Assembly (NCBI GenBank): GCA_016793885.1
Contig: JAEUHE010000131.1
Coordinates: forward strand, 1 to 38,238
Length of the DNA stretch: 38,238 bases
Reading direction: 5' to 3'
From: Verrucomicrobiales bacterium
GTDB taxonomy: Bacteria; Verrucomicrobiota; Verrucomicrobiia; Limisphaerales; UBA11320
Shown: positions 580 through 22,576 of the stretch, piece after piece
How positions within the stretch are numbered: position 1 is the first letter of the stretch
Layout of the letters: every line of letters starts with the position of its first letter
Translations under genes and position numbers: made by a program
Notes under the pieces: model-generated
What the model was told of the DNA's origin: nothing
Databases searched by the model: none
The model's input: the letters and a program-made list of their open reading frames with translations, nothing else

Positions 580-1350
580 ATGCGCGCACTGCTCTCACTC
601 ACCCTGCTCACGTTGCTCATGCTCACCTCCTCGAACGCCTCGGCTGCCTCTCCGGACACCCAATGCTACGAGATGCGGATCTACTACGCCGCTCCGGGTA
701 AACTCGACGACCTGAACGCCCGCTTCCGCAACCACACCATCAAGTTGTTCGAGAAGCATGGCATGAAGAACATCGGCTACTGGATGCCGATCGAGAACCC
801 CGAGCTGAAGCTGATCTACGTGCTGGCTTACCCGAGTCGCGAGGCTCGCGAAAAGTCCTGGAAGGCGTTTGTGAACGACCCCGAGTGGAAGGCGGTCGCC
901 AAATCAACCGAAGCGAACGGCCGCCTGGTGGCCAAAGCCGAAAGCCTCTTCATGTCCGCGACGGACTATTCTCCCGTGATCGCTCCTGAGAAAGCAGCCG
1001 TGCCGCGCGCGTTCGAACTTCGCACCTACACCGCCACTCCGGGCAAGCTGTCGAACCTCAACGCCCGCTTCCGAAACCACACCGTGGAGCTGTTTCAAAA
1101 GCACGGTATGAAGAACATCGCGTATTGGAACCTCATGGCAGGGGAAAAAGGCGCCGACGACACTCTAATCTATCTGCTCGCCCACGCCTCCAAAACCGCA
1201 GGAGAGGCTTCCTTCAAGACCTTCCGGGAGGACCCGAAATGGAAGGCCGCGCGCAAGGACTCGGAAGAGAAGGCCGGCGGCTCACTCACCATCCCCGATG
1301 GCGTCAAATCCGAATACTTAGTGCCGACAGATTATTCCCAGTGGAAGTAG
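580..1350 (+). CDS. Secreted double-NIPSNAP domain protein
   Basis: A 256-residue protein with two tandem NIPSNAP domains, roughly residues 25-120 and 138-254. Both contain the same block, LNARFRNHT followed by a KHGMKNI segment, so the gene arose by internal duplication. Residues 1-22 are a typical signal peptide (MRALLSLTLLTLLML, then SNASA), so the protein is predicted to be exported. NIPSNAP domains are small dimeric alpha/beta barrels related to ABM monooxygenases, and the reaction of bacterial members is mostly unknown. I chose the ATG at 580 over the TTG at 574 because it gives a clean signal peptide. The gene converges on the DUF1501 gene, and a strong hairpin lies between them. Confidence 0.88.
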   Translation: MRALLSLTLLTLLMLTSSNASAASPDTQCYEMRIYYAAPGKLDDLNARFRNHTIKLFEKHGMKNIGYWMPIENPELKLIYVLAYPSREAREKSWKAFVNDPEWKAVAKSTEANGRLVAKAESLFMSATDYSPVIAPEKAAVPRAFELRTYTATPGKLSNLNARFRNHTVELFQKHGMKNIAYWNLMAGEKGADDTLIYLLAHASKTAGEASFKTFREDPKWKAARKDSEEKAGGSLTIPDGVKSEYLVPTDYSQWK

Positions 1351-7142: not shown

Positions 7143-8489
7143 TCACCGAAGGATCAAAGCACTTCGTCCTGAACCCTCCTGGCTGGCATACGAGTAGATC
7201 AATCCCTCGTCCGTGCTCACGAACAGACGTCCATCCGCAACGGCTAACCCCGCCGCCCGCCCAGTTACAGCACTCGCCCACAGACGATTGCCTGACGCGG
7301 CGTCATAGGCCGACACCTCGCCGTCCCCTCCCACCCATAAAGTCGTGCCCGCCAAAATCAGGGTGTGCCCCGAGGTTACCGGCTTTGTCCACAGCGTCGC
7401 TCGTCCCGGACGGCTCAATGCCTTTAATGCGGTGTCGCTCAACAGATAGCTCCGGTTGGTGGTCACAACCATCGCGTTGCCGTCATCGTAGGTCGCCAGG
7501 GTATCGCCGGCTGAACCCGACTCGGTAATGCGCCCCAACGTCCGGCCTGATCGCCCATAGAAGAACGAGTTGCCCGCCAACAACGCGAAGGTCCCCGATG
7601 CCTCACGGTCATTGTACTGGCCCAACAACGCTCCCGTCGATCGATTGAAGTAAAAGGGGTTGCTGCGTCCGCCCGGGACATAGACGCGGGTTCCCGAGAG
7701 CAGGAGATATCCCTGCATGGACCCCTGATTCAGATGGCGGGTCCTCCAATGATTGGTCGTGGTGAACTGCCCGCTGAGGGCATCGACCGCACAGAGGTAT
7801 ACTCCTTCACTCGGGAAGATCCCGGCCGCAAAATACGCCGTGCCCCGATCCACCAGAACCCCGCTGCGAACGGCCCAAGGGGAGACGGGCTGGCCGTTGT
7901 TCGGGACCCAATAATTCGTCGGGCCCGCCGGAGTGTATTTCCAGACCAACGTGCCTTGCACAGCATCGAGGCAATAGGCCGAACCGTCATCGGAACCCGC
8001 ATACACCCGTCCGGAATCCACGGTGGGTGCCATGCGCGCCGGGCCATCGGTAAAGAAGGTCCAGCGCGGTTCCCCAGTCACCGCATCGAGACTCTGAATG
8101 GTGTGGTCCGTCGCGGAGGCGAGATAGACTCTGCCTCCCGACACCGCCACGTGGTTGACACGGTCAAACAGGTTCCGCTGTTTGAACGGCCGTTGCGACG
8201 GAATGTCGACGGAGTAGTCCCGCTTGGCCTCGTCGTGCCAGGCGGGATGCGGACGCTTGACACGCGGATAGACCCAGGCCACCCCGAGATTCGTACGGAG
8301 CGCCTCCGACGTGATGCCACTGCGCTGAGCATCCCGCATATAGGTAGGCCAGTCCGCCGCAGCGACCGGCCCACACGCCGCACCGGTCCAGAATGCCAAA
8401 AGAGTGACGATGACAGCCCACCCTCGGCCTGCCCGTGTCACGAAGCGTAGGTCGTTGGCGGTGGAACCGGAGGCTTGGGTGTGACTCAT
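7143..8489 (-). CDS. Secreted PQQ-like beta-propeller protein
   Basis: A 448-residue exported protein. After a hydrophobic leader (around residues 22-43, ending near GPVAAAD) comes WPTYMRDAQRSG, the usual opening of PQQ-like propellers. Repeated blades follow, each with a variant of GRVYLASATDHTIQSLDAVTG then W. I count about six or seven blades. The ATG at 8489 overlaps the TGA of the upstream gene by 4 nt, which argues for translational coupling and against a longer start. It is the last gene of a three-gene operon, and the neighbouring upstream protein also ends in a PQQ propeller. Whether it binds PQQ or only shares the fold cannot be told from sequence. Confidence 0.88.
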   Translation of the reverse strand: MSHTQASGSTANDLRFVTRAGRGWAVIVTLLAFWTGAACGPVAAADWPTYMRDAQRSGITSEALRTNLGVAWVYPRVKRPHPAWHDEAKRDYSVDIPSQRPFKQRNLFDRVNHVAVSGGRVYLASATDHTIQSLDAVTGEPRWTFFTDGPARMAPTVDSGRVYAGSDDGSAYCLDAVQGTLVWKYTPAGPTNYWVPNNGQPVSPWAVRSGVLVDRGTAYFAAGIFPSEGVYLCAVDALSGQFTTTNHWRTRHLNQGSMQGYLLLSGTRVYVPGGRSNPFYFNRSTGALLGQYNDREASGTFALLAGNSFFYGRSGRTLGRITESGSAGDTLATYDDGNAMVVTTNRSYLLSDTALKALSRPGRATLWTKPVTSGHTLILAGTTLWVGGDGEVSAYDAASGNRLWASAVTGRAAGLAVADGRLFVSTDEGLIYSYASQEGSGRSALILR

Positions 8490-11428
8490 GGTGCAGCGTA
8501 GGAGATCGTGGACTGAATCGGGAATCGACAGGCGCAACCCGCGCTCGCCGCTGGCATCAGCACCATCCCCTCCCCGGAGATCAAGGAGAGGAAGCAACTC
8601 GAGCGAGTCCCCGCCATCTCGCGTCGTTGCTGGGTGTCGAGATCCCAGATGAACGGGGATCCCTTCGCGTAGTCCCAATTAATATAGTGAACCGCTTTGG
8701 CCGCAGCCGACATCGTGGTGCACCCGCCCCGCTCCGGCAAGCCCGACCGAATGACTGCACCGCTTTCCAAATCGTAGACGTAGGGCTCCACAATCACCTG
8801 TTTACCAACGATCACCGGGTGATACATGTGCCCGCCGTGATGATTTCGATTCCAGGCATGCGACTTTTTCCAAATCTGACTGCCATCAGCCGCTGAGTAA
8901 CAGAAGACGTTGTATTGAGTGGTGGAATCGTTGAGCACCAACCGCTCTCCGGCGTAGGAAAGGTAGAATACCACCGGATACGGGCTCACCGGAACGGCCA
9001 GGGGTTTCTCCCACAGAAGTTCCCCCGTGCGCGCGTCCAGCGCCACAATGGAGTTGCTCCTCCACAGGTTGGCGCTGTCAATGCGGCCACTGGCATAGTT
9101 GAGGATGGCCGGGTTCCGGCAATCGACGAAGTAAATCCGCCCCCCACCAATGGCGATGGTGTTGTTAATCACCACCCCGTTGGTGTAGCTCCACAGCGAA
9201 GTTCCATCGGCCTTCGCCAGGCAGAACAGGCGATGGCTGCAGATCTTCGAGATCTCGTTCAAAGCCGTGGTTGAATCATACCAAAACTCCCAGCTCCCAT
9301 CATACTTCGTGTAAAATGACCCCTTCTTCACCGAGCTGCCATAGAGCCGATCATCGACCGTGGCCACGTAGCCCCAGTCGTAACCCTCGGCCGCCTCGGG
9401 CACAGAGTAGATGCGTTGCGTTCGGCCGGTGCGCGCGTCCAGTCGGAGAACGGACTGGCGATGGGCGACCATCACCGAGGTGGAATCGGCACACCAATTC
9501 CCACCATCACGCGGCATGTTGACCCGCCGAAGCTCGGGAATTTCAAGCGACCAATACATTCGTCCATTGTGCGCATCTTGAGCCGCCAAACGGTTGTTTC
9601 CCTGGGTGTACAGGGTGCCGTTGGCGACCAGCGGAGATGGATTCCGAGCTTGCCGATCCGTGAACCCCCGGGGGCCGGGTTCTCCAAACCACTGAACTTT
9701 CATATCACGGCCCAGAACGCGCTCGTCCTGACTACAAACGGTCTGAGCCGGATCGGCAAAGTTGTGAGTCCATTGTCCGGCACCAGGCAACGCGCGACGG
9801 GTTCCTCGCAGTCCCCGTCCCGGGGTGACCACCACATCCATCGAGTCGGCAGGCACTCCTCCACGCAACCAGGCCTCCCACTCGGCCGAACGCGGAAATG
9901 AGTCGGCCATCCCGTCAGGGTTTCCCAGAAGCACGATGCCTCCAGATGGCCGCAGCACGCGAAACAGTTCGGCCGCAACTCCCGCAGGCGCTCCGCCGTG
10001 AAGCGCGGAGGAAGATAGGATCATATTGAACCAATTCTTGGTGTAAGGCAGTGCCGCCAGCGAAGTGTGAACGGCGGAGATGCGCGTCCCATACAATCCC
10101 GATGCCTGGAGCCGCAACCGAAGTTCCTGGACGACGGCGGCGTTCGAGGACACCACCATCACCTGCAGGTCCGACCGACGCACCAACTCCCAGGCCAAAC
10201 GTCCATCGATCGCCCCGTAGTCCAAAGCATAGCCCCGAGTGATTCCTGTCTCCGCCAGAATCGATTCAGCTATTTTTCCATACCACTCCGTACGGTCGTC
10301 CGCTGGGAAAGGTGCCAGCCGCGGGTCGATCGGCGGCAGGGTGTAATTGAAGTCTGTTTCAAAATCGTAGATCGGGGACGTGACTGGGGTCGAGGGAGGC
10401 AGGACATTCGCCTCGACGCGAAAGAAATACCGTGTCTTCGGCTTCAACCCTCGCAAGGTGACCTCGTGGACCGTCTTCATTACCGAATCGGCTACGACCG
10501 ACTCCAGAGCCTCCGCCACTCCCCATTCCAACGACGTCCGAACGGGGGTGGCCGTTTGCCATTCCACAACGGCGCTGCTGGGATCAGTAAATCGAACCAC
10601 CGGTCCCAACAACGGGGATGGCTTGGGCGGAGGGAGCTGGATCGTGGCGGGGAAGAGATTGCTCTGGCTCTGATAGGTGGCCAACACCTCTGGAGCCGAC
10701 AGGGTATGGCCGTAGACTGCCACTTCGCGCAACCATCCATCGAGAGGATAAAACTCGTTGTCATCCTTGTACGCCCCCAGGACATAAGGCGCGGCAGAAT
10801 AAAGAACGGCCCCCTTCTCCGTCCCCGCCGTCGCGACCAACCGCCCATTGATAAAGAGCTTCTGCTGAACTCCATCATAGGTCCCGAGCACGTGATACCA
10901 CCGATTCAATTGAAAGGCGCTGGGAGCATACAGGTAGTTCAAAGTTCCATCGCTGGTTAACGCGAAGTAAAACTTGGAGTCGTGGGCTCCCAGCACCCAG
11001 CCGCGTTCGAAATCCCCGTTGTCCTGCAGACACCCGACAATACCAGGCCACTGTCCGGCGGAGCGCATCGCCACCCACGCCCCCACGCTCAGATTGGTTC
11101 GCGGAAGCACCGTCGGCGGCAAAGCGGGAGAGAGCTGCACGAAATTTTGAACCCCATCGAACAGCACCGCTTCAGGGTCGGAGGTGAGAGTCAAAGGCCC
11201 CATGAACTGGCCGTCCGGAGAGCCCGCCTGGTTTCGCACCATTCCCCCGCTCACATTGGTTTTCGATAGCACCCATTGACCGAGTGGAGCCGCCGCCGCG
11301 ACAGGAAAGCGACAACCCAAGCAGAGGAGCACGACTATCCACAGCACAGACAGGCTTGGGCCTGCGTCGTGACGCCCCCACCTGGAGGTCCGCTTAGTCT
11401 GTCGACTTCTAGACAAAGGAAGATTCAT
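8486..11428 (-). CDS. Exported LamG / Fn3-like / methyltransferase-like / PQQ-propeller fusion
   Basis: A 980-residue multidomain protein. A leader covers about residues 25-47. A LamG/concanavalin-like domain spans ~48-250, with WVAMRSAGQWPGIVG and NRWYHVLGTYDG. A purple-acid-phosphatase or fibronectin-III type domain lies at ~270-365 (AVVEWQTATP, LKPKTRYFFRVEA). A class I SAM-methyltransferase-like domain is at ~375-510, with ALDYGAIDGRLAWEL in place of motif I and LFRVLRPSGGIVLLG as the late motif. PQQ-like repeats fill ~545-970. The first methyltransferase motif lacks the usual glycine spacing and the acidic residue after strand 2 is replaced, so the domain may not use SAM. It overlaps both neighbours by 4 nt (ATGA). 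Fusions of methyltransferase and PQQ domains occur in PVC bacteria, as far as I recall; their function is not known to me. Confidence 0.85.
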   Translation of the reverse strand: MNLPLSRSRQTKRTSRWGRHDAGPSLSVLWIVVLLCLGCRFPVAAAAPLGQWVLSKTNVSGGMVRNQAGSPDGQFMGPLTLTSDPEAVLFDGVQNFVQLSPALPPTVLPRTNLSVGAWVAMRSAGQWPGIVGCLQDNGDFERGWVLGAHDSKFYFALTSDGTLNYLYAPSAFQLNRWYHVLGTYDGVQQKLFINGRLVATAGTEKGAVLYSAAPYVLGAYKDDNEFYPLDGWLREVAVYGHTLSAPEVLATYQSQSNLFPATIQLPPPKPSPLLGPVVRFTDPSSAVVEWQTATPVRTSLEWGVAEALESVVADSVMKTVHEVTLRGLKPKTRYFFRVEANVLPPSTPVTSPIYDFETDFNYTLPPIDPRLAPFPADDRTEWYGKIAESILAETGITRGYALDYGAIDGRLAWELVRRSDLQVMVVSSNAAVVQELRLRLQASGLYGTRISAVHTSLAALPYTKNWFNMILSSSALHGGAPAGVAAELFRVLRPSGGIVLLGNPDGMADSFPRSAEWEAWLRGGVPADSMDVVVTPGRGLRGTRRALPGAGQWTHNFADPAQTVCSQDERVLGRDMKVQWFGEPGPRGFTDRQARNPSPLVANGTLYTQGNNRLAAQDAHNGRMYWSLEIPELRRVNMPRDGGNWCADSTSVMVAHRQSVLRLDARTGRTQRIYSVPEAAEGYDWGYVATVDDRLYGSSVKKGSFYTKYDGSWEFWYDSTTALNEISKICSHRLFCLAKADGTSLWSYTNGVVINNTIAIGGGRIYFVDCRNPAILNYASGRIDSANLWRSNSIVALDARTGELLWEKPLAVPVSPYPVVFYLSYAGERLVLNDSTTQYNVFCYSAADGSQIWKKSHAWNRNHHGGHMYHPVIVGKQVIVEPYVYDLESGAVIRSGLPERGGCTTMSAAAKAVHYINWDYAKGSPFIWDLDTQQRREMAGTRSSCFLSLISGEGMVLMPAASAGCACRFPIQSTISYAAP

Positions 11429-12489
11429 GGCTCAGCGATCACTCGATAGAACACCGGATGATGGCCGTTGGGCAAAATGAAAAATCCGGCACCGCCATCA
11501 CCCCGGGTCGGAGAGACTCCTGCCACTTTAAGCCAGGGCTCAAACCCCACTACAGCCGGCCGACTCTCCAAATAGTAGCTCCGACCCGGGAGCGTCGGAA
11601 ACCTGATGCGATGATGCGTGCTGTCCAGCGCCTCGATCATGAGTCCCCACCCATCGCCCGCCCACCGCGGGTCCGATCCCACTTGGACCTCAGTGCCATC
11701 CGAGACTCCGTCCCCATCGGTATCTGAATTGTCCACTCGCGTACCATGGAATTTGACTTCATCAAGGTCCGTCAACCCATCGGTATCACCGTCCCGATCC
11801 AGTCCCCAAAGCGTCACGCTAAAATCATCCAGCGAGGCTGGCAGGCCGGAAAGCCACCGGCAGAACTCGAGGCTCGAAATCGCCCGGTCCTTGAAGCCCA
11901 AGCCCCCCAATCTCCGCACCCCATCCAGCCACACGTCATAGCGGCGGTTTTCATAGTCAATCCGAATACTTACACGGCGAGGATCCTCCCCGGCCAGGCT
12001 ATAACCCTGGGTCGCCGGAAGAAAAATGCCGTTCCCCTCCCCGTCCCCATCGAGAGCCAACACGCCCCTCTGGGAGCCGAGAACCAGGACGACGCTGGCG
12101 GGGCCGCTGGGGATCATGGGCGGCCAATCAGATCCGCCACCGCTCACCAAAAAATCGACCCACACTACCGGTGCAGCCGCACGGATCCCCAGTTCGACCT
12201 CGGCTTGGCGGGCAGAGACCGATTGGGTGCCTCTACCCACCGCCGGTTGAACGACTTCCGCATCGCCTGCCAGCACCCGCCAACCCGATTGCCCGTGAAG
12301 ATTTCCTAGCACAAATGGAGGCACTGCGGCCTGCTCGAACCCGGTCAGATAGAGAACCCCAGAGTCAGGCGTCGCCGCCTCGAGGAATGGCCACAGCAAA
12401 AGCCAGCTGCCCATAAGACACACCCCACCGGCTCGACGGGCGCGTCGAAGGAAACCCAAGGACAAAAAAGGTTGAGCGGTGATCGCCAT
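11425..12489 (-). CDS. Secreted protein with thrombospondin type-3-like calcium repeats
   Basis: A 354-residue exported protein, first in the three-gene operon. The leader has a basic segment (RRARR) followed by a hydrophobic run ending near FLEAATP. The middle, about residues 40-225, is a beta-rich domain I cannot name; it may be a LamG-like jelly roll. Residues ~232-275 carry two Asp-rich loops, DRDGDTDGLTDLDE and DTDGDGVSDGTEVQ, typical of thrombospondin type-3 calcium sites. The C-terminus carries YYLES, a Trp and FYRV, a module shared with other secreted proteins here. The ATG at 12489 was preferred to a GTG at 12513; an ATG at 12414 is also possible. Its stop overlaps the next gene by 4 nt. 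Confidence 0.75.
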   Translation of the reverse strand: MAITAQPFLSLGFLRRARRAGGVCLMGSWLLLWPFLEAATPDSGVLYLTGFEQAAVPPFVLGNLHGQSGWRVLAGDAEVVQPAVGRGTQSVSARQAEVELGIRAAAPVVWVDFLVSGGGSDWPPMIPSGPASVVLVLGSQRGVLALDGDGEGNGIFLPATQGYSLAGEDPRRVSIRIDYENRRYDVWLDGVRRLGGLGFKDRAISSLEFCRWLSGLPASLDDFSVTLWGLDRDGDTDGLTDLDEVKFHGTRVDNSDTDGDGVSDGTEVQVGSDPRWAGDGWGLMIEALDSTHHRIRFPTLPGRSYYLESRPAVVGFEPWLKVAGVSPTRGDGGAGFFILPNGHHPVFYRVIAEP

Positions 12490-12579
12490 TAAATCCACAG
12501 GAACAGATAGCACACCTTAGACGAAACCTCCCGGGTCACAATGCAAAACCCTCCGCCCGCCAGTTGACGCAAGTGCCAA

Positions 12580-15500
12580 ATGAGTCAATGGTTGAGCGGA
12601 TATATGCATGTCCCGATCCGATATGACCTTCTGCGATTCTGTCTGTGGTGCCTGGTGCTGAGCATCCAGTTTCCTGCCCTCCGTCTGCTGGGACAGGAAG
12701 AGACCAAATCGTTGTTCCCCTTGGATCAGTCCTGGCGTTACAACCAAACCTCGGGCTACGCAGGCCAAACCTGGGCGGAACTGGGCTTCGACGATTCGGC
12801 CCTTCCCCAATCCGCCGGGCTGTTTGCCGCTGAATCAGGCAACCCCTTTGTTACCGCCCGACTCCGCACCCGCCTTCAACCCGGCCGATCTACCTACTAT
12901 TTCAGAACCTCGTTCCTCTTCACCAACTCCCCGGTCGGAATCACCTTGGTCTGCAGCAACCTCATCGATGACGGGGCCGTGTTTTATCTTAACGGCCGAG
13001 AGGTCAAACGGCTGCGCCTGCCAGAGCCACCCAACCCTATCCAGGACGAGACCGTCGCGGTCCCACATGAGGTGACCGCATTCGAAGTGTTCCACCTGTC
13101 GGGACCGCTCATCGAAACCAACCTTTTCCCCGGGGTCAACGTGCTGGCCGTTGAAGTTCACCAAGACCCCGAAGCCAACTCCGATGTGGTATTCGGAATG
13201 AGCTTAACGGCCGTTCTACCCGACCCTCGTCAGCCCTCGACCTTGAAGATGCCACAGGAACCCCGATCCGAAGGCCTTCGCTTCATCAACGCCTTTGATG
13301 GGTTGAGCTTCATCAACCCGGTGGCCATCAGCAGTCCTCCCGGGGAAACCAACCGCCTCTTTGTGGTCGAGCAGGCCGGGCAGATCTCCGTCATCACCAA
13401 CCTGGCTAATCCCAATCGGTCCACGTTTCTCAACATTTCAGGCCGCATCATCTCCGGCGGAGAACAGGGGCTGCTGGGACTGGCCTTCCACCCTGGTTAC
13501 GCCACGAATCGGCAGTTCTTCCTCTTTTACACCACCCGATCCACCACGACACAAGGGACCAATGCGCTCCACGATCGACTCTCCCGAATGCGGACCTCCG
13601 CGGACGACCCGAATAGCGCCGATCCCGCCACCGAGGAGATCCTTTTCGAGCAGTTCGACGAGGCCTCCAACCACAATGGGGGAGATCTTCATTTTGGACC
13701 CGATGGCTATCTCTACGTGTCCTTGGGAGATGAAGGCAGTGGCAATGACGCGTTCCTGAACAGCCAGCGGATCGATCGCGACTTCTTCGCCGGCCTGCTC
13801 CGCATCGACGTGGATGCGCGCGCAACGAGCCTCCCCGCCAACCGCCATCCGGCCAATCAAAGAGGGCCTGAGACCCCCATCCCCTACCGCATCCCGGCGG
13901 ACAACCCGTGGGTCGGAGCCACCGAATTCAACGGCCGGCCCGTGGACCCCGGTTCGGTGCGAACTGAGTTCTACGCGGTGGGGCTCCGCAACCCGTGGCG
14001 GTTCAGTTTCGATTCCCTGACCGGAGAACTCTACCTCGCCGATGTCGGACAAGGCGTTTATGAGGAAGTCAACCTGGTGCGCAAAGGTGGCAACTATGGC
14101 TGGAGCTTTCGCGAGGGCTTGCATCCTGGCCCGCGTGTTGGGCCGCCTGCGGGCGTGAGTTTTGACGGACCCATCGCCGAATACATCCATGGATCAGGAC
14201 CCGATCGCGGAAATTCCATCACCGGAGGATTGGTTTATCGCGGCTCCCGCATCCCATCTTTATATGGTGCCTATGTCTTTGCCGACTACGTCAGTGGCAA
14301 CGTCTGGGCGCTCCGCGCCACCGGCACGAATACGGTTCCTTTCACCCGGCTCACCGGTGATACCAGCATCGCGGGTTTTGGCGTCGACCCACGAAACGGC
14401 GACATTCTCTCAGCCGATCAGAGCGAAGATCAGATCAAGCGGCTAGTCTCAGATCCCGGAACCAGCGTGGGATCCGCTCTGCCTCCCACCCTTCTGCAGA
14501 CCGGGGCCTTCACCAACCTGCATCAACTCACCGATCCCACCATGGCTCTGACGCCTAACACCGGGGTGCAACCCTACGAGATCAACGTGCCATTCTGGTC
14601 CGATCATGCGCTTAAGACCCGCTGGGTATTTCGAAGCAACCCGAATCTTAAGATTCAAACGTCGATCAACGAGAGCTGGAACTTCCCTACCGGGACCGTA
14701 TGGATCAAGCACTTCGATCTGGAGCTCACCAACGGGGTGCCGGAGTCAAAGCGTCGGCTCGAGACACGCCTGTTGGTCCGAAATTCCGCCGGGGTGTATG
14801 GCGTGACCTACCGCTGGGGCAGTTCGCTGACCAACGCCAGCCTGGTCCCGGAGTCGGGGCTGGAGGAATCATTCGTTGTCCACGATGGCGGCACCACCCG
14901 CACGCAGGTCTGGCGCTATCCCAGTCGGTCTGAATGCGTCGCCTGCCACACCCCGGCCGCGGGCTACGCCCTCGGTTTCGGCACGGCCCAATTGAATCGC
15001 GATACCACCTCGTCCGGCGCCACCCAAAACCAGCTCGCTCAACTCCAGAGTGCCGGCTACTTCTCCACGCCGTTCCCCAACCCCGAGGTGCTCCCCCGCC
15101 TGGCTCACGCCACCAACGAAGCCTGGAGCGCGGAGTGGCGAGTGCGCTCCTACCTTTCCGCCAATTGCGCCTCCTGCCACCGACCCGGAGGAACCGCCCT
15201 CGGTCAATGGGATGCTCGAGCGCATGTTCCACTTTCCCAGGCTGGCATCGTTAACGGTGCGCTGACTGAGAATAGCAGTTCCGATCAGGACCGTGTCGTT
15301 GCACCCGGCTCCGAAGCGAACTCGATGCTTCTGCAACGGATCTCCACGCGAGGCCCCCGACAGATGCCGCCCCTGGGTTCAACCGTACTGGACCTTGCCG
15401 ACATCCGTCTTCTCGCCCACTGGATTACCAATGAGCTGCCTCGCACGGTGGACTTTGACACGTGGCAGTTCATTCACTTTGTCACCACAGAATCCCCTCC

Positions 15501-15828
15501 CGCGGGACCACAGGATGATCCCGACGGGGACGGACGTGACAACTGGCTGGAATGGCTCAGTGAGACTGATCCGAACAATGTCGCCAGCCGATGGGAGGTC
15601 ACCTGCAGTCGAGTCGACGGTAAGGTTGCACTCGAGTTTCCCCACCCGGCCAACCGGGCCGTTCAAGTCGAGTTCACTTCCAATCTGGATGACCCTTCGT
15701 CGTGGCGGCTGCTGGACGTGCCGTCCAATCGTTTCCTGGTGCCAGCTCAAACCTTACTGAGGACAGTAGAAGACGCTCACGATGGATCGACGGCTCGCTT
15801 CTACCGCGCTGTGATCAGCGATCCCTGA
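12580..15828 (+). CDS. Glucose/sorbosone dehydrogenase fused to a diheme cytochrome c-like domain
   Basis: A 1082-residue secreted protein. After the leader comes a jelly-roll region (~45-215, with GAVFYLNGREVKR). A soluble PQQ glucose/sorbosone dehydrogenase propeller spans ~234-625, with LLGLAFHPGY, NHNGGDLHFGPDGYLYVSLG (its His is a candidate catalytic residue), GLRNPWRFSFD and GGNYGW. A tail of ~420 residues resembles the SO2930-type diheme cytochrome family, with CVACH near 786 and CASCH near 863. Next come a calcium-loop-like DDPDGDGRDNWLEWL and a C-terminal module ending ARFYRAVISDP. The fusion suggests substrate oxidation at PQQ with electrons passed to the hemes in the same chain. 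An in-frame ATG at 12604 would give a neater signal peptide. The gene is divergent from the calcium-repeat gene. Confidence 0.88.
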   Translation: MSQWLSGYMHVPIRYDLLRFCLWCLVLSIQFPALRLLGQEETKSLFPLDQSWRYNQTSGYAGQTWAELGFDDSALPQSAGLFAAESGNPFVTARLRTRLQPGRSTYYFRTSFLFTNSPVGITLVCSNLIDDGAVFYLNGREVKRLRLPEPPNPIQDETVAVPHEVTAFEVFHLSGPLIETNLFPGVNVLAVEVHQDPEANSDVVFGMSLTAVLPDPRQPSTLKMPQEPRSEGLRFINAFDGLSFINPVAISSPPGETNRLFVVEQAGQISVITNLANPNRSTFLNISGRIISGGEQGLLGLAFHPGYATNRQFFLFYTTRSTTTQGTNALHDRLSRMRTSADDPNSADPATEEILFEQFDEASNHNGGDLHFGPDGYLYVSLGDEGSGNDAFLNSQRIDRDFFAGLLRIDVDARATSLPANRHPANQRGPETPIPYRIPADNPWVGATEFNGRPVDPGSVRTEFYAVGLRNPWRFSFDSLTGELYLADVGQGVYEEVNLVRKGGNYGWSFREGLHPGPRVGPPAGVSFDGPIAEYIHGSGPDRGNSITGGLVYRGSRIPSLYGAYVFADYVSGNVWALRATGTNTVPFTRLTGDTSIAGFGVDPRNGDILSADQSEDQIKRLVSDPGTSVGSALPPTLLQTGAFTNLHQLTDPTMALTPNTGVQPYEINVPFWSDHALKTRWVFRSNPNLKIQTSINESWNFPTGTVWIKHFDLELTNGVPESKRRLETRLLVRNSAGVYGVTYRWGSSLTNASLVPESGLEESFVVHDGGTTRTQVWRYPSRSECVACHTPAAGYALGFGTAQLNRDTTSSGATQNQLAQLQSAGYFSTPFPNPEVLPRLAHATNEAWSAEWRVRSYLSANCASCHRPGGTALGQWDARAHVPLSQAGIVNGALTENSSSDQDRVVAPGSEANSMLLQRISTRGPRQMPPLGSTVLDLADIRLLAHWITNELPRTVDFDTWQFIHFVTTESPPAGPQDDPDGDGRDNWLEWLSETDPNNVASRWEVTCSRVDGKVALEFPHPANRAVQVEFTSNLDDPSSWRLLDVPSNRFLVPAQTLLRTVEDAHDGSTARFYRAVISDP

Positions 15829-17322: not shown

Positions 17323-19356
17323 TTACTTCGCCAGGCGATAGTAGCCGGTGCCAGCGGGCGTCAGTTCGATGGTGAAGGTTTCACCCTCTTCGACCGGCAC
17401 ATCCCCCAAGGTGGTCCAAACCGCATCCGCCCCGATCGTGGACGAAGTTTGCAGCGAGTAACCAACCTGCGTCTTCGGCCAGCTGAACTTGAGCTTGCCG
17501 TTCGCGAGGGAGGCCAAGCTCAGGCGAACGCCTTTGCAGTCCTCCAACAGGTTCACGTCCGCGAGCGGCCCGCAGGGCCGGATCACGGCGTAACGGACAC
17601 GGGAGAACGCGATCTTGCCGTTCGGATGAGAGACCACAAACCGAGCAGCGGCCTGCGGACCTTGGTTCACGCCGCTGAAATTGACGTTCGGAATCTCGAA
17701 GTACGCCTCCCGCCACTGTCCAGTCCCTTCCAGCGCGACCGCTATGCTTCCGGGGGTGAAAGCGAGCGTCTCACTGCCGAATTGCTCGGTTTTGTAGACC
17801 TCCGGACGAAACGTCTGACCGATCAGATCCGGGTCGTCGTAATAGGTCATGCAGATGGCCAGGCGCGCATTGTCCTGCGAGGAAGGTCCGAAGGGCAACT
17901 TGGGTTCCTCCCCGTCGACGACGATGGGTACGATGGCAAAATTGAGATACTGGTTATTAAACCCATTGTTGCCATCTCCTAACGCCGCTCGAATCGACAT
18001 CCGCCGGTCATTCGTGGGCCCAGCCTCCTCCTGGATCATCACCTGATCGCCGCCCGAACTGCCAGGCTGCAGCCCGACAAAGGTCCCGGCAGCCAGATCC
18101 ATTTCGGCGAAGTTGCCATATACGCCCTGGCAGATCTTGTCGTCCCGAAAGCAGTCGGCCAGGGGATCTTGATTCGCCAACGGATGAGTCCCGTTTCGCA
18201 ACACGGCCATTTCAAAGCGGGAGATCGCCACCGCCCCACCCTCAAAGATAAACCTCGGTCCAGCGGTCAACGGTGCCACATTCACGCCGAACAGGCTCAC
18301 ACCGGCCACGGTGAAGGATCGCCGACGCCAAACTCCAGTCCCCTCCAGCAATTGGCGCTGTGTTCCGATCTGGATGGATCCATCCCGATCCGTGGAAAAA
18401 GCCTCTGGTCCGAAACTGACTCCCGCCTTCTCCGGATCGTCATAGTAATCCACGCACACTTTGACCGCGTGCGGGTCATTGCACGGAAGTCCGAGGTAGT
18501 TGTCCGTGACCGCGAAGTTGATGAACGAGCCGTTCGCAACCACCGCCTTGCGCTTGTCACCCTCCGGACCAACCCCTTCGACAATGGTGGTCAATTGATC
18601 GCCGTTGTTGAGGATCACCACGTGATCCGAAGTCCCAGCATGGACATCGATGCCCACCAAATTCGTCTCGGGCTCCGGCTCACAGGGCAACGGTTCCAGA
18701 AACTTGTTGATCTCCTCGCGCGGTCCAAAGGCGCCCGGTTCACCGAACGCGATGGCCCGAACTATCAGGCCGGGCACCGCCTCGAACCGCATGGTGCCGC
18801 CGTTCACGCCCGATCCGCCGCGCACGAAACGCAGTCCAGAACCATCCGGCAGTTCGTTATTCGAAACGGAAAACAAGGCCCAGTTCCAACGCCCGTTACG
18901 CGCTTCCCGGGGAAGTTGACCACCGTTCGGGGCAGTCAGGGTCGGCAAGGATCCTTGCAGGAAGTTAAAGTTTCTCGGATTGCCGGCCGCAGTGAGGATG
19001 GCTCCGTTCCCGAAGAACTGCACCAGAATGTCGATTTGTCCAAAAGACTCCCATCGGGCGGACTGGTTGTCTTTGACATTGAGGTACTGGGCATCCGCTT
19101 TCAGGCCACCGACGCCGACAAGGGTCACCGGTGTGGTAATCTGATCCCCGCCAGTTTGGATCGCGAGAGCCGTGCCGTCCCACGACTCGCTGGGTGGACT
19201 CAAAAAGCCATCGACGGCAACATAATTAACCAGCTTTGTGGGATCAATGGTCGCCGGCCATTGTCCAGGATCAAACGGGCCTTCTTGGGCGTGCAAGCTC
19301 AGCGCGGAGAGAACAATCCCCGCGCACGCCGTTGTGAGAAACGATCGTAGATACAT
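17323..19356 (-). CDS. Secreted protein of three tandem ~200-residue repeats
   Basis: A 677-residue exported protein of unrecognised family. The leader is MYLRSFLTTACAGIVLSAL, ending near LHAQ. Three diverged repeats follow. The last two align clearly: VCVDYYDDP near residue 300 and ICMTYYDDP near 498, each followed by an EGTG-W block and a block ending in SRF or SRV. The first (~30-185) shares the YLNVKDN and G.W features but is more diverged. Loops with paired cysteines (CEPEPE, CFRDDKICQG, CGPLADVNLLEDC) separate the units. The C-terminal ~60 residues form the module seen in neighbours (YSLQTSS, then W, then YYRLAK). The ATG at 19356 was chosen because it starts the signal peptide. A terminator follows the stop. 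Function unknown; a substrate-binding or surface role would fit. Confidence 0.75.
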   Translation of the reverse strand: MYLRSFLTTACAGIVLSALSLHAQEGPFDPGQWPATIDPTKLVNYVAVDGFLSPPSESWDGTALAIQTGGDQITTPVTLVGVGGLKADAQYLNVKDNQSARWESFGQIDILVQFFGNGAILTAAGNPRNFNFLQGSLPTLTAPNGGQLPREARNGRWNWALFSVSNNELPDGSGLRFVRGGSGVNGGTMRFEAVPGLIVRAIAFGEPGAFGPREEINKFLEPLPCEPEPETNLVGIDVHAGTSDHVVILNNGDQLTTIVEGVGPEGDKRKAVVANGSFINFAVTDNYLGLPCNDPHAVKVCVDYYDDPEKAGVSFGPEAFSTDRDGSIQIGTQRQLLEGTGVWRRRSFTVAGVSLFGVNVAPLTAGPRFIFEGGAVAISRFEMAVLRNGTHPLANQDPLADCFRDDKICQGVYGNFAEMDLAAGTFVGLQPGSSGGDQVMIQEEAGPTNDRRMSIRAALGDGNNGFNNQYLNFAIVPIVVDGEEPKLPFGPSSQDNARLAICMTYYDDPDLIGQTFRPEVYKTEQFGSETLAFTPGSIAVALEGTGQWREAYFEIPNVNFSGVNQGPQAAARFVVSHPNGKIAFSRVRYAVIRPCGPLADVNLLEDCKGVRLSLASLANGKLKFSWPKTQVGYSLQTSSTIGADAVWTTLGDVPVEEGETFTIELTPAGTGYYRLAK

Positions 19357-19538
19357 AGTCGTACTTGTGTTCGAGTGAGTACCAGGCCATCCGCCGTGGC
19401 TGACAAAAGTCAGACAGCAGATCCCCCGACGTTGGCAAGGGGACGCAGGCCAACGCCTGGGAGCACTTGACGTGCAGCTTGTGGATTTCGAGGAGCTTGT
19501 TAGCAAACTGACCCGCAAAGTCAAAAGCTAAACGCGGA

Positions 19539-22355
19539 TCATCGCTTCACCGTAAGTCGAAAGAACGCAGCGGCACCGGCATTCGGAACCGAGACCAATA
19601 CTCGACCTCCTCCCGCCAAATCACTGACCGCTGTCTCGGAAGTGACCGACCATCGCTGAAGATCGACGGAAGTTTCCACCCCCACAAGCGTTCGCGGTGT
19701 CGCCGCAAACACGAGTTCAACCCGGGAATCGGCCTGAGGATGGAGATGCACAATTCGTGGCGGCACAGTCTCCCCCTCCGCCGCGACCAGCACGTCATCC
19801 AAACGCAGCAAGGCTCTTGGCCCCTTACCCGACGCAACTTGATAATACTTCCAGCGCAGGCGAACATAGGGCTGATCGTTCGCCGTCGCCGGAAGACGAA
19901 CCGGCCCCATGATCTGCTCATGTCCCGCGACCTCGTTCCGCACATACTCGACCGGTGCCCCCGTTGGATCGAGCACATCCGAAAAAAGACCGTCGCCCAC
20001 GGAGTACTGTAGCCGCAACGCGTAAGTCTGTTCGTTCGGCACGAGGGTCCCCCCCACCCAACTCACCACCACGTTCGTCACCCCCCGTGTGTCCAGAGCG
20101 AGAACCGCGCTACCCACGAAACCTGCACCTGCGGCCGCCTGCGGATCGCTGGTATTTAGAAAACCCACCCCCAAGGCATCGAGACCCTGAATCCGACTGC
20201 GACTTCCATAGGCATAGCCGAGCGTCCACTCGGAAGTGAGAGGGGTGTCCAAGCCCGGATCCCGTTGCATCGTTTGCTCGAAGAGCATGCGATCCGGATA
20301 GCTGCCGGACGGCGCCGCCTTCGGCCACGACTCGAAGAGATAGGGCCCCGACAGCAACTCGTGGGCGCGCAAATGCCGTTCGAACTGCGCCACCACATTC
20401 GATGCCCCACCCAGGGTCAACGTCCACGACTGAGTCGTGCCTAGCTGGGGCAGGCCCTTCCATCCCGCAAAGCGGTAGCCTGGGCGAGGAACCGCTTCCA
20501 AATGCACAGGGACCGCTCGAAAGTAAGTTCCGCGCCACGGAAACGTGTTCGTTGGATTGTTACCTTCGGTGCTTTCATTAATTCGCAGCGTGTTGAGCTG
20601 GAACTCCCCGGCCCCACGCGGCTCCATGTCCAAAGTGAGATTCGCAAAGCCGCCCAGCGGAAACGCCGAGACCAGGTGCTGCCGCACGTTCACGGGACGT
20701 TGACTGGCGAAGAAGCGAAGATTCGCCACCTCGGTCCTCCACCCGTTGGTAGAATCGTTGGACGTCCGCCACCGGGCGATATGATCTGCCATAGCCGGAG
20801 TCAGCATCGTTTGCATCTGCTGAATCACACTGCTCGCACGGGTCTCCCGGAAGCTGGAATTGAGCAAGTCCGCCATCGTGTTGATAAACTGGTTGCGAAA
20901 CCCGGTGTTCAACAGCAACCGACGAAAGATCAGGGTGGACCAATGGTTGGGAATTCCCAACCGGCCGTTCGGATCCTTAGCCAATGCGAGCGAATTCTCG
21001 CTCACCCCGGTCGTCCAGACATGCGCGTAGCCAAGATCGACATCGAACAACAGCCATCGCCACCGGCCATCGTGCCCGTAGGGCGCATTCGGCTCGTAGC
21101 TCGCGGTACGACGCCTCCAAAAGCGGATGTTATTGTGCGGCCAATCTGCATTGGCGAAATAGATCTCGGCCGCCTGATAGGCAATGAAGTTCTCAATGTC
21201 CATGAGCTGGCCAACCACCGCGTAATTGGTCGCGTTCGCCATATCCTTGGTCGCGATGAACTTCACCATGTCCGCGTAATGCTTCTCATCGCCGGCCAGC
21301 CCCTCCATCAACGATCCCGGCCCCTGACAAATCACTACCTCAGCTTGTGGAACCCCATAGTGATCGTTGATATAGTCAGGATCCTGCTGCTCCCTCAGAT
21401 TGTGAACTCCCCAGAATTCTCCATCCAGATAGACCACTACCGGCCGGTAGGCGAGCGTGTCGATTCGGGTGGATTGAACCAGCAGATGACAAAGCGCATC
21501 ACGCATCAGCGTGTACGCCCAATCATTACCCGAGTTGGCCAGTCGGAGGTGATCGAAGCGCGTCATCACCTCGCCCTGCCGATTCGTCAGACCTGGAAAA
21601 AAGAGGTAGCGAAAATCATCCGGAGCAAAGCCGTCGTCGATCGACTTGAGTCCAAGTGATTTCTGACGAAATGAGCGTGAAGACTGGCCTTGGATGTCCA
21701 CCACCACTCCCTGTGCAAACGCGCGACGGCCATCCGGCTCGAACCACTCTAGATAGCCCGAACGCTCCCAAGCCGGCCCTCGTTGAGTGTAGTTGGCCGG
21801 GGTGTGCCCCGTCAGCGGTTCCCCCGGATGGGTGCGCACGTAGTCGTCGAAGATGCGGCCCAACATGTAGATTCCCGTGTTGTAGTTGAAAAGATCATTG
21901 GTCGACAAAGCGATTGACACTACCGGAAGCCCGTAGGTCCTCATGGGGTTGCGCCCCGCGAAATAGGTGTGAGTTACCGACGGACCTGCCGGAGCGTTCG
22001 TCTCGTAAACCTGTGCCCGCACCACCGTTGCCTTCGGAACCAAACCTTTGGGCGGCTTCCAGCCATCCGTGTGCTGGTTTACCGTCGCCGTGCCCGGAAT
22101 CAAGGAGATGCCATTGCTCTGTCCAGCTCGATCCACAAGTGTCAACGGGCTAGTGAAGGTAGCTGAACTGTTCGAAGGCGAGTTGCCGTTGAGGGTGAAT
22201 CGAACAGAACCTGCGGGGTTCGTGGTGGAGAGCAGCAGCTCCATCGGATGCGGATAGTGTCCGCCCGGACTGGAGAATTCAGGAACCGAAGCCGCTCGTA
22301 GCGAGGAAGCGAACGCCGACATCACGAGTATGCAGCACAGCACAAAGGGGTTCAC
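19539..22355 (-). CDS. Secreted CotH-kinase family protein
   Basis: A 938-residue exported protein. After a leader (FVLCCILVMSAFASSLRAA), an N-terminal chitobiase/Fn3-like domain (~25-130) precedes a CotH-kinase domain. That domain spans roughly 135-510, with IYMLGRIFDD, DIQGQSSRSFRQKS and YLDGEFWGVHNLREQQDPDY. CotH proteins are atypical secreted protein kinases, described in Bacillus spore coats and widely found in bacteria. An InlB-type repeat follows near 585-680 (PRPGYRFAGWKG), then a beta-rich region, then the C-terminal module ending AAFFRLTVKR. The start is uncertain: GTG at 22355 gives the cleanest leader, TTG at 22385 is longer, and ATG at 22322 is probably too short. Targets of phosphorylation are unknown. 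Confidence 0.85.
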   Translation of the reverse strand: MNPFVLCCILVMSAFASSLRAASVPEFSSPGGHYPHPMELLLSTTNPAGSVRFTLNGNSPSNSSATFTSPLTLVDRAGQSNGISLIPGTATVNQHTDGWKPPKGLVPKATVVRAQVYETNAPAGPSVTHTYFAGRNPMRTYGLPVVSIALSTNDLFNYNTGIYMLGRIFDDYVRTHPGEPLTGHTPANYTQRGPAWERSGYLEWFEPDGRRAFAQGVVVDIQGQSSRSFRQKSLGLKSIDDGFAPDDFRYLFFPGLTNRQGEVMTRFDHLRLANSGNDWAYTLMRDALCHLLVQSTRIDTLAYRPVVVYLDGEFWGVHNLREQQDPDYINDHYGVPQAEVVICQGPGSLMEGLAGDEKHYADMVKFIATKDMANATNYAVVGQLMDIENFIAYQAAEIYFANADWPHNNIRFWRRRTASYEPNAPYGHDGRWRWLLFDVDLGYAHVWTTGVSENSLALAKDPNGRLGIPNHWSTLIFRRLLLNTGFRNQFINTMADLLNSSFRETRASSVIQQMQTMLTPAMADHIARWRTSNDSTNGWRTEVANLRFFASQRPVNVRQHLVSAFPLGGFANLTLDMEPRGAGEFQLNTLRINESTEGNNPTNTFPWRGTYFRAVPVHLEAVPRPGYRFAGWKGLPQLGTTQSWTLTLGGASNVVAQFERHLRAHELLSGPYLFESWPKAAPSGSYPDRMLFEQTMQRDPGLDTPLTSEWTLGYAYGSRSRIQGLDALGVGFLNTSDPQAAAGAGFVGSAVLALDTRGVTNVVVSWVGGTLVPNEQTYALRLQYSVGDGLFSDVLDPTGAPVEYVRNEVAGHEQIMGPVRLPATANDQPYVRLRWKYYQVASGKGPRALLRLDDVLVAAEGETVPPRIVHLHPQADSRVELVFAATPRTLVGVETSVDLQRWSVTSETAVSDLAGGGRVLVSVPNAGAAAFFRLTVKR

Positions 22356-22576
22356 GGGCAAAACGTAGTCCCCGGTATCACCCAAGGCAAGCCCTGCTCA
22401 CCAACCGGTAGCGGTTCTCAGCGCGGCGAAATCACCCAGCTATATCGGAATCTTAACTCCACATGGCCCACCGCTTTCCCCGCTGCGTCTCCGCGCCACC
22501 GCGCCTTCGCGTTTCTTTAGCCGCAGCGATCCAACAGAGCTCTAAAACCAGGCGTTTATAGTGGGCGCACCATAGG

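Follow-up and report, generated by a model that had tools for sequence, protein, structure and literature searches.

Does a bacterial gene that joins a glucose/sorbosone dehydrogenase (GSDH)-type propeller to two CxxCH heme motifs encode a sugar dehydrogenase dependent on pyrroloquinoline quinone (PQQ), or a different kind of redox protein? We addressed this question for a gene predicted to encode 1,082 amino acids (aa) in a 38,238-nucleotide stretch from a Verrucomicrobiales bacterium (GenBank assembly GCA_016793885.1; contig JAEUHE010000131.1, positions 1 to 38,238 of the forward strand), here called the window. A preliminary description had proposed that the protein oxidizes a sugar with PQQ and passes the electrons directly to heme. 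We instead favor, with a probability of roughly 0.55, a secreted modular diheme redox enzyme with an open heme resembling that of cytochrome P460. In our opinion, the name "PQQ sugar dehydrogenase" is unproven for this protein and the less likely reading.

The propeller and the diheme-like tail with CVACH and CASCH do lie in one chain, as the preliminary description had it. The protein matched the Pfam GSDH family (PF07995) with an expectation value (E) of 4.3e-29 (102 bits against a cut-off of 25), and a CBB3-type cytochrome was also matched, weakly. A comparison with the SO2930 diheme family, suggested in the same description, was partly borne out: residues 651 to 950 matched positions 12 to 312 of the 314 in the NCBIfam profile TIGR03806 (E = 1.7e-55). 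The score of 188.4 bits is under the curated cut-off of 313.3, and we therefore call the domain SO2930-type rather than a member of TIGR03806. The NCBIfam model for PVC-type heme-binding CxxCH proteins (TIGR02604) gave 19.1 bits, below its cut-off of 122.2. Both heme motifs were invariant in all 97 distinct aligned domains and are thus not there by chance (conservation was counted on 97 of 116 rows, which were distinct over residues 20 to 180 and at least 200 aa long). In a full-length AlphaFold model built from a 41-row alignment (mean predicted local distance difference test [pLDDT] score of 76.8), residues 213 to 1082 were modelled well, and residues 1 to 212 had a pLDDT below 50.

We then looked for relatives of the diheme domain. 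Modelled alone (pLDDT of 94.4; predicted template modelling score of 0.91), it has strands over its first 140 residues, followed by a helix with the first CxxCH and a helical portion that includes the second. In structural comparisons with VIA-align, the top 11 rows were all P460 or c'-beta cytochromes, among them 9hrk (Z = 7.2; root mean square deviation [rmsd] of 3.5 over 116 aa), 7s5o (Z = 7.1), and 7ead (Z = 6.5); these rows mainly cover residues 640 to 830, and the absence of other families from them is uninformative. Because a Z score of about 7 is weak by itself, we also compared sequence profiles. With hhalign, the heme-1 half aligned to a profile of 33 P460 homologues with a probability of 95.7% (E = 1e-8) and a score of 57.5, compared to a maximum of 36.9 in 40 column shuffles that kept the heme motif. 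Truncating both profiles ahead of the heme motif gave a score of 32.5, and the highest value among 60 shuffles was then 18.3. As further controls, five propeller windows scored 10 to 15, and the c-type profile of the protein's own heme-2 half scored 32.2. PSCyt3 was rejected as a better relative of the heme-1 half, with 25.9 versus 57.5 for P460. Searches of solved structures with the diheme domain found no relative from the single sequence; the profile search found FoxE only, for the heme-2 half (4e-5).

The aligned core pairs FPTGTVWIK (residues 702 to 710) with FPDGSVLAK of P460. The hhalign pairing sets Lys710 against Lys78 of M. capsulatus P460 (McP460; the position was counted along McP460), which is given as the heme-cross-linking residue in Table 2 of PMC11928373. 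Of the 97 domains, 87 have Lys at position 710, 8 have Gln, and 2 have Arg; Lys also occupies the cross-link position in 28 of the 33 P460 homologues. Around heme 1, W673, T729, and W746 are invariant, and K710, E728, and Y744 are nearly so. Met929 is likewise invariant (97/97). Besides this residue and the CxxCH histidines, no Met or His is conserved in more than 63% of the domains, the highest being His711 (61/97), which adjoins Lys710. We infer that heme 2 has a His/Met pair of ligands and that the distal side of heme 1 is open. As a separate observation, the proteins with Gln or Arg in place of the lysine (loci L001, L006, L050, L068, L078, L121, L125, L132, L143, and L145), several of which carry a third CxxCH, form a natural contrast set.

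Next, we examined the propeller. Its model aligned with the P. aerophilum sugar dehydrogenase 3a9g with a Z score of 40.2 (rmsd of 2.5 over 325 aa) and about equally well with human HHIP (7pgm; Z = 39.1), which is also its closest solved relative by sequence. Residue roles in the PQQ site of the soluble glucose dehydrogenase (sGDH) are in part general background. In sGDH and its relatives, the quinone end of PQQ meets His144, Arg228, and Asn229, and its carboxylates meet Lys377 and C-terminal arginines (PMC6881789). We counted these positions in 75 fusion propellers, after setting aside five fusion and two solo open reading frames (ORFs) of unusual span, together with 16 loci that repeated genes of the source genome; near-identical rows remain (L071/L072 and L126/L133). 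The alignment upheld one side of the PQQ site that the preliminary description had assumed. The quinone-facing residues are kept (His144 and Arg228 in 75/75 and Asn229 in 60/75), and the Gly247 position is Gly in 74/75. Pro248 is replaced, by Gln in 43/75, and the main-chain ligands of Ca2+ at these two positions are unreadable from sequence. The carboxylate side is missing. The equivalent of Arg408 occurs in 0/75 fusions and that of Arg406 in 8/75 (plus 3 with Lys), versus 4/4 reference chains for both; the window protein has Ser and Ala at the Arg406 and Arg408 positions. It also has Val in the Lys377 column, but this loss weighs little, as only one of the four references has Lys there. All four references contain an R-x-R-[DE] motif, which is absent from every GSDH propeller of the source genome that was scanned; a relaxed motif scan was positive in 2/76 fusions and 1/46 solo propellers. 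Solo propellers of this clade (n = 45) resemble the fusions at these positions, so the loss is independent of the fusion. The clade has its own features, His or Arg at position 537 in 67/75 fusions (53 His and 14 Arg) and Asp569 in 73/75. These residues could serve another ligand, or PQQ could be bound differently.

The supply of PQQ was assessed at the genome level. The source genome (8.7 Mb in 274 contigs; 95.7% complete) has 25 GSDH-domain matches and no match to PqqC, which makes the PQQ annotation of all 25 doubtful. The best match to the PqqE model scored 121 bits, below the cut-off of 381, and is of little weight because this model also matched below the cut-off in 14/14 control genomes. 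Within the class, PqqC exceeded its cut-off in 14 of 141 genomes, 11 of them from one family. None of these 14 is among the 31 genomes with an SO2930-type domain (Fisher's exact test, P = 0.04, ignoring kinship).

Several observations weigh against an open, P460-like heme or against a PQQ-free propeller. The best structural Z score (7.2) falls in a range that, by the aligner's own guidance, is often reached by models that match nothing clearly. Foldseek returned no match for the diheme domain under an E of 0.001 (its first row was a cytochrome P460, at 0.29), and the Pfam P460 match covers only the heme motif (E = 0.19); a Pfam scan of the heme-1 half was uninformative. Ten of the 97 domains do without the lysine. 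The distal carboxylate Asp102 of McP460, found in active P460s, falls on Arg730 in the hhalign pairing, and we therefore do not predict hydroxylamine oxidation. As to the propeller, His365 and Arg470 never vary and Asn471 is mostly retained, which argues that its chemistry is still near that of a quinoprotein. These residues (Gly490 is also conserved, in 74/75) could form the face of a PQQ-dependent sugar quinohemoprotein in which other anchors, such as the conserved His/Arg537, hold the cofactor and sugar electrons pass to heme 1 or heme 2. The fungal pyranose dehydrogenase CcPDH (AA12), which also has a fused cytochrome, gives a precedent: it lacks several classical PQQ ligands and is nevertheless PQQ dependent (PMC4133262 and PMC6881789). 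PqqC was also found in two of nine other fusion-bearing genomes outside the class sample. The absent Arg408 and Lys377, the lack of PqqC in the source genome, and the disjoint distribution of PqqC and SO2930-type domains point the other way, as does the cytochrome-fused propeller of Teredinibacter TERTU_3803, for which PMC10916295 reports no PQQ binding by isothermal titration calorimetry with or without Ca2+ and no glucose dehydrogenase activity. The PQQ reading is weakened rather than eliminated by these data because the fungal AA12 enzyme holds PQQ by other residues, and we consider it unlikely.

About equally improbable is that neither part is catalytic, with the propeller a pure binding domain like HHIP and the diheme domain a plain unit for electron transfer or surface electron exchange, similar to FoxE or MtrC. 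HHIP is the propeller's nearest solved relative in sequence and ties with the sugar dehydrogenases in fold, the heme-2 half matches FoxE, and the genes are scattered among unconserved neighbors. However, HHIP does not have the Arg/Asn pair (GLHDP is found there), and the fusions all keep that arginine. A second ligand of heme 1 is not clearly conserved, yet this heme is surrounded by a set of invariant or near-invariant residues, seemingly more than a passive carrier needs.

Under the favored reading of a diheme redox enzyme, the chemistry would most likely take place in the diheme unit, with a heme rather than a quinone as its site. Heme 1 would sit in a P460/c'-beta-type beta-sheet domain with its distal side open and reactive, and Lys710 would be placed to cross-link this heme or to line its pocket. 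Heme 2 would be a cytochrome of the His/Met kind, delivering electrons to heme 1 or taking them from it. The propeller, with its kept His/Arg/Asn pocket and lost Arg/Lys clamp, would probably bind a substrate or a different ligand, which it may present or modify through that pocket. A further-reaching proposal is more tentative, and we see it as possible but somewhat doubtful: that the SO2930-type domain, which many uncharacterized secreted proteins carry, holds a P460-type catalytic heme, with a Lys710-heme cross-link or an open pocket shaped by Lys710; that this heme is coupled to the His/Met one and, where a propeller is fused, to a propeller without PQQ; and that these proteins make up a class of heme-based redox enzymes.

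The fusion is neither a rarity nor an assembly artifact. The source genome has six SO2930-type domains above 160 bits, and all six share an ORF with a GSDH propeller. At an E of 1e-20, the domain occurs in 31 of the 141 genomes of the class (the curated TIGR03806 cut-off is reached in 0/141), and 41 of 41 relatives match TIGR03806. The fused architecture recurs in 44 of the best 80 loci, which were taken from a larger number of matches gathered by similarity to fusion proteins. It is seen in several phyla, with fusions in records that bear the labels Planctomycetota, Polyangia, Winogradskyella, and Gammaproteobacteria; some of these are metagenome bins whose labels may be wrong. A Pseudoalteromonas replicon encodes one with 29% identity over residues 207 to 949. 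We also noted a paralogue of the fusion at locus L010 (10056-16001) in an open frame of 2,972 aa, with many similar repeats after the diheme domain.

Features of the fusion gene, with positions counted in the window
Feature	Residues	Position	Strand	Basis
Whole fusion gene, one uninterrupted ORF	1-1082 (1082 aa)	12580..15828	+	ORF call
Start codon, ATG or in-frame ATG (M9)		12580 or 12604	+	ORF reading
N-terminal module	40-220	12697..13239	+	Genome-wide matches
Six-bladed GSDH/HHIP-type propeller	230-628	13267..14463	+	Pfam, AlphaFold model, structural alignment
His365 (catalytic His144 of sGDH)	365	13672..13674	+	Alignment of 75 fusions
Arg470-Asn471 (Arg228-Asn229 of sGDH)	470-471	13987..13992	+	Alignment of 75 fusions
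Diheme domain, two CxxCH, SO2930 type	640-955		+	TIGR03806 profile
Heme-1 half, beta-sheet, resembles cytochrome P460/c'-beta	640-834	14497..15081	+	Model, structural and profile comparison
Lys710, at the P460 heme-cross-linking lysine position	710	14707..14709	+	hhalign pairing
CVACH, heme-1 attachment	786-790	14935..14949	+	Motif
Heme-2 half, helical cytochrome c (CBB3/FoxE-like)	835-955	15082..15444	+	Pfam, profile search
CASCH, heme-2 attachment	863-867	15166..15180	+	Motif
Met929 (RQMPPLG), probable distal ligand of heme 2	929	15364..15366	+	Conservation
C-terminal DxDxDG stretch and beta module	971-1082	15490..15825	+	Sequence

A hydrophobic stretch at the N terminus of the fusion protein looks like a signal peptide (judged by eye), and the protein is probably exported. 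The genome also has two partial matches over the cut-off to ResB (cytochrome c maturation). The region ahead of the propeller, previously described as a jelly roll, is a real, abundant, and unnamed module. The genome contains 54 matches to it, many of them within open frames of 2,000 to 3,000 aa, and no Pfam family matched residues 40 to 220. The jelly-roll fold itself is unproven, given the low pLDDT of this part. Tails resembling residues 971 to 1082 (W..L...FYR type, by eye) end three other window proteins (11425-12513, 17323-19524, and 19539-22385), and such beta tails may have a sorting or anchoring role in the lineage.

The preliminary description had also linked the gene to adjacent PQQ-propeller genes and esterases. 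BamB/PQQ_2-repeat proteins and an SGNH esterase do flank it, along with a TSP3-repeat protein and a CotH protein. All of these are encoded on the opposite strand, leaving the fusion gene alone on its own, so it is not in an operon with the BamB/PQQ_2 and esterase genes. At the relatives' loci, no Pfam family occurred more than three times among 102 neighboring ORFs (up to four ORFs per locus, covering part of the 44 fusion loci). An operon with the flanking genes was therefore rejected. The proposed sugar substrate, direct electron transfer, and pathway with the neighbors found no support. Further out, the window encodes a PSCyt/PSD1-DUF1501 pair, a sigma-70 factor, argininosuccinate lyase, a LeuA-like enzyme, and a valyl-type class I tRNA synthetase. 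Two overlapping minus-strand ORFs in different frames (7143-8678 and 8486-11428) both contain PQQ_2/BamB repeats; they are possibly one methyltransferase-PQQ_2 gene split by a frameshift, or else two genes.

Family names and record labels file the propeller's relatives as "PQQ-dependent sugar dehydrogenase," which suggests extracellular sugar oxidation by bacteria without PQQ synthesis genes. If PQQ is absent from the propeller and the active site lies at a P460-like heme, such annotations mislead. For the widespread diheme family, this would give a chemical hypothesis open to testing for the first time: heme 1 binds a ligand or is the site of an oxidation, and Lys710 is the residue to alter. 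The P460/c'-beta superfamily of small proteins with one heme would come to include large modular proteins that are secreted. Our literature search found no paper on the SO2930 family beyond a passing mention, and none reading its first half as P460-like; in the available text of a 2025 P460 review, the words "diheme," "fusion," and "multi-domain" do not occur.

The combination of a GSDH propeller with a cytochrome is already published for Teredinibacter (PMC10916295 and PMC12055684) and, with other domains, for fungi. TERTU_3803 of Teredinibacter turnerae (a GSDH-like pf08450-X173 propeller with X183/X132 cytochrome domains) is, according to PMC10916295, likewise secreted, with a GSDH-annotated propeller, c-type hemes, and binding modules. 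It carries carbohydrate-binding modules where our fusion has its own N- and C-terminal modules; the two were compared by description. For Cellvibrio, related X183/X132 cytochromes are treated in PMC8981238 and PMC12542752, and for freshwater Verrucomicrobia, PSCyt proteins are treated in PMC5615132. According to PMC4133262 and PMC6881789, fungal CcPDH is also a secreted protein with a GSDH-like propeller, a cytochrome, a binding module, and some changed PQQ ligands, but its cytochrome is b-type (AA8), its PQQ binding has been measured, and its propeller is distant (6jt5; Z = 29.5; 13% identity). With the soluble aldose and glucose dehydrogenases (E. coli YliI 2g8s, P. aerophilum 3a9g, and A. 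calcoaceticus sGDH), the fusion protein shares six blades, the catalytic His, Arg228-Asn229, and Gly247; it differs in lacking the Arg pair and Lys for the PQQ carboxylates and in having a heme domain. With the TIGR03806 SO2930 family, it shares the nearly full-length match and two CxxCH motifs and differs in the propeller fusion and a score below the cut-off. Like the P460/c'-beta cytochromes (PF16694; McP460 6hiu/9hrk, NeP460, and NeCP-beta 7s5o), it has a beta-sheet domain followed by CxxCH and an FPxGxVxxK motif with the lysine position. Unlike them, it has two hemes, a fused propeller, and Arg730 at the distal carboxylate position, and its stretch from the lysine to the heme motif measures 76 residues, compared to 62 in McP460. 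The parts of the protein belong to known families, and the computed likeness of its heme-1 half to P460 is what is new here.

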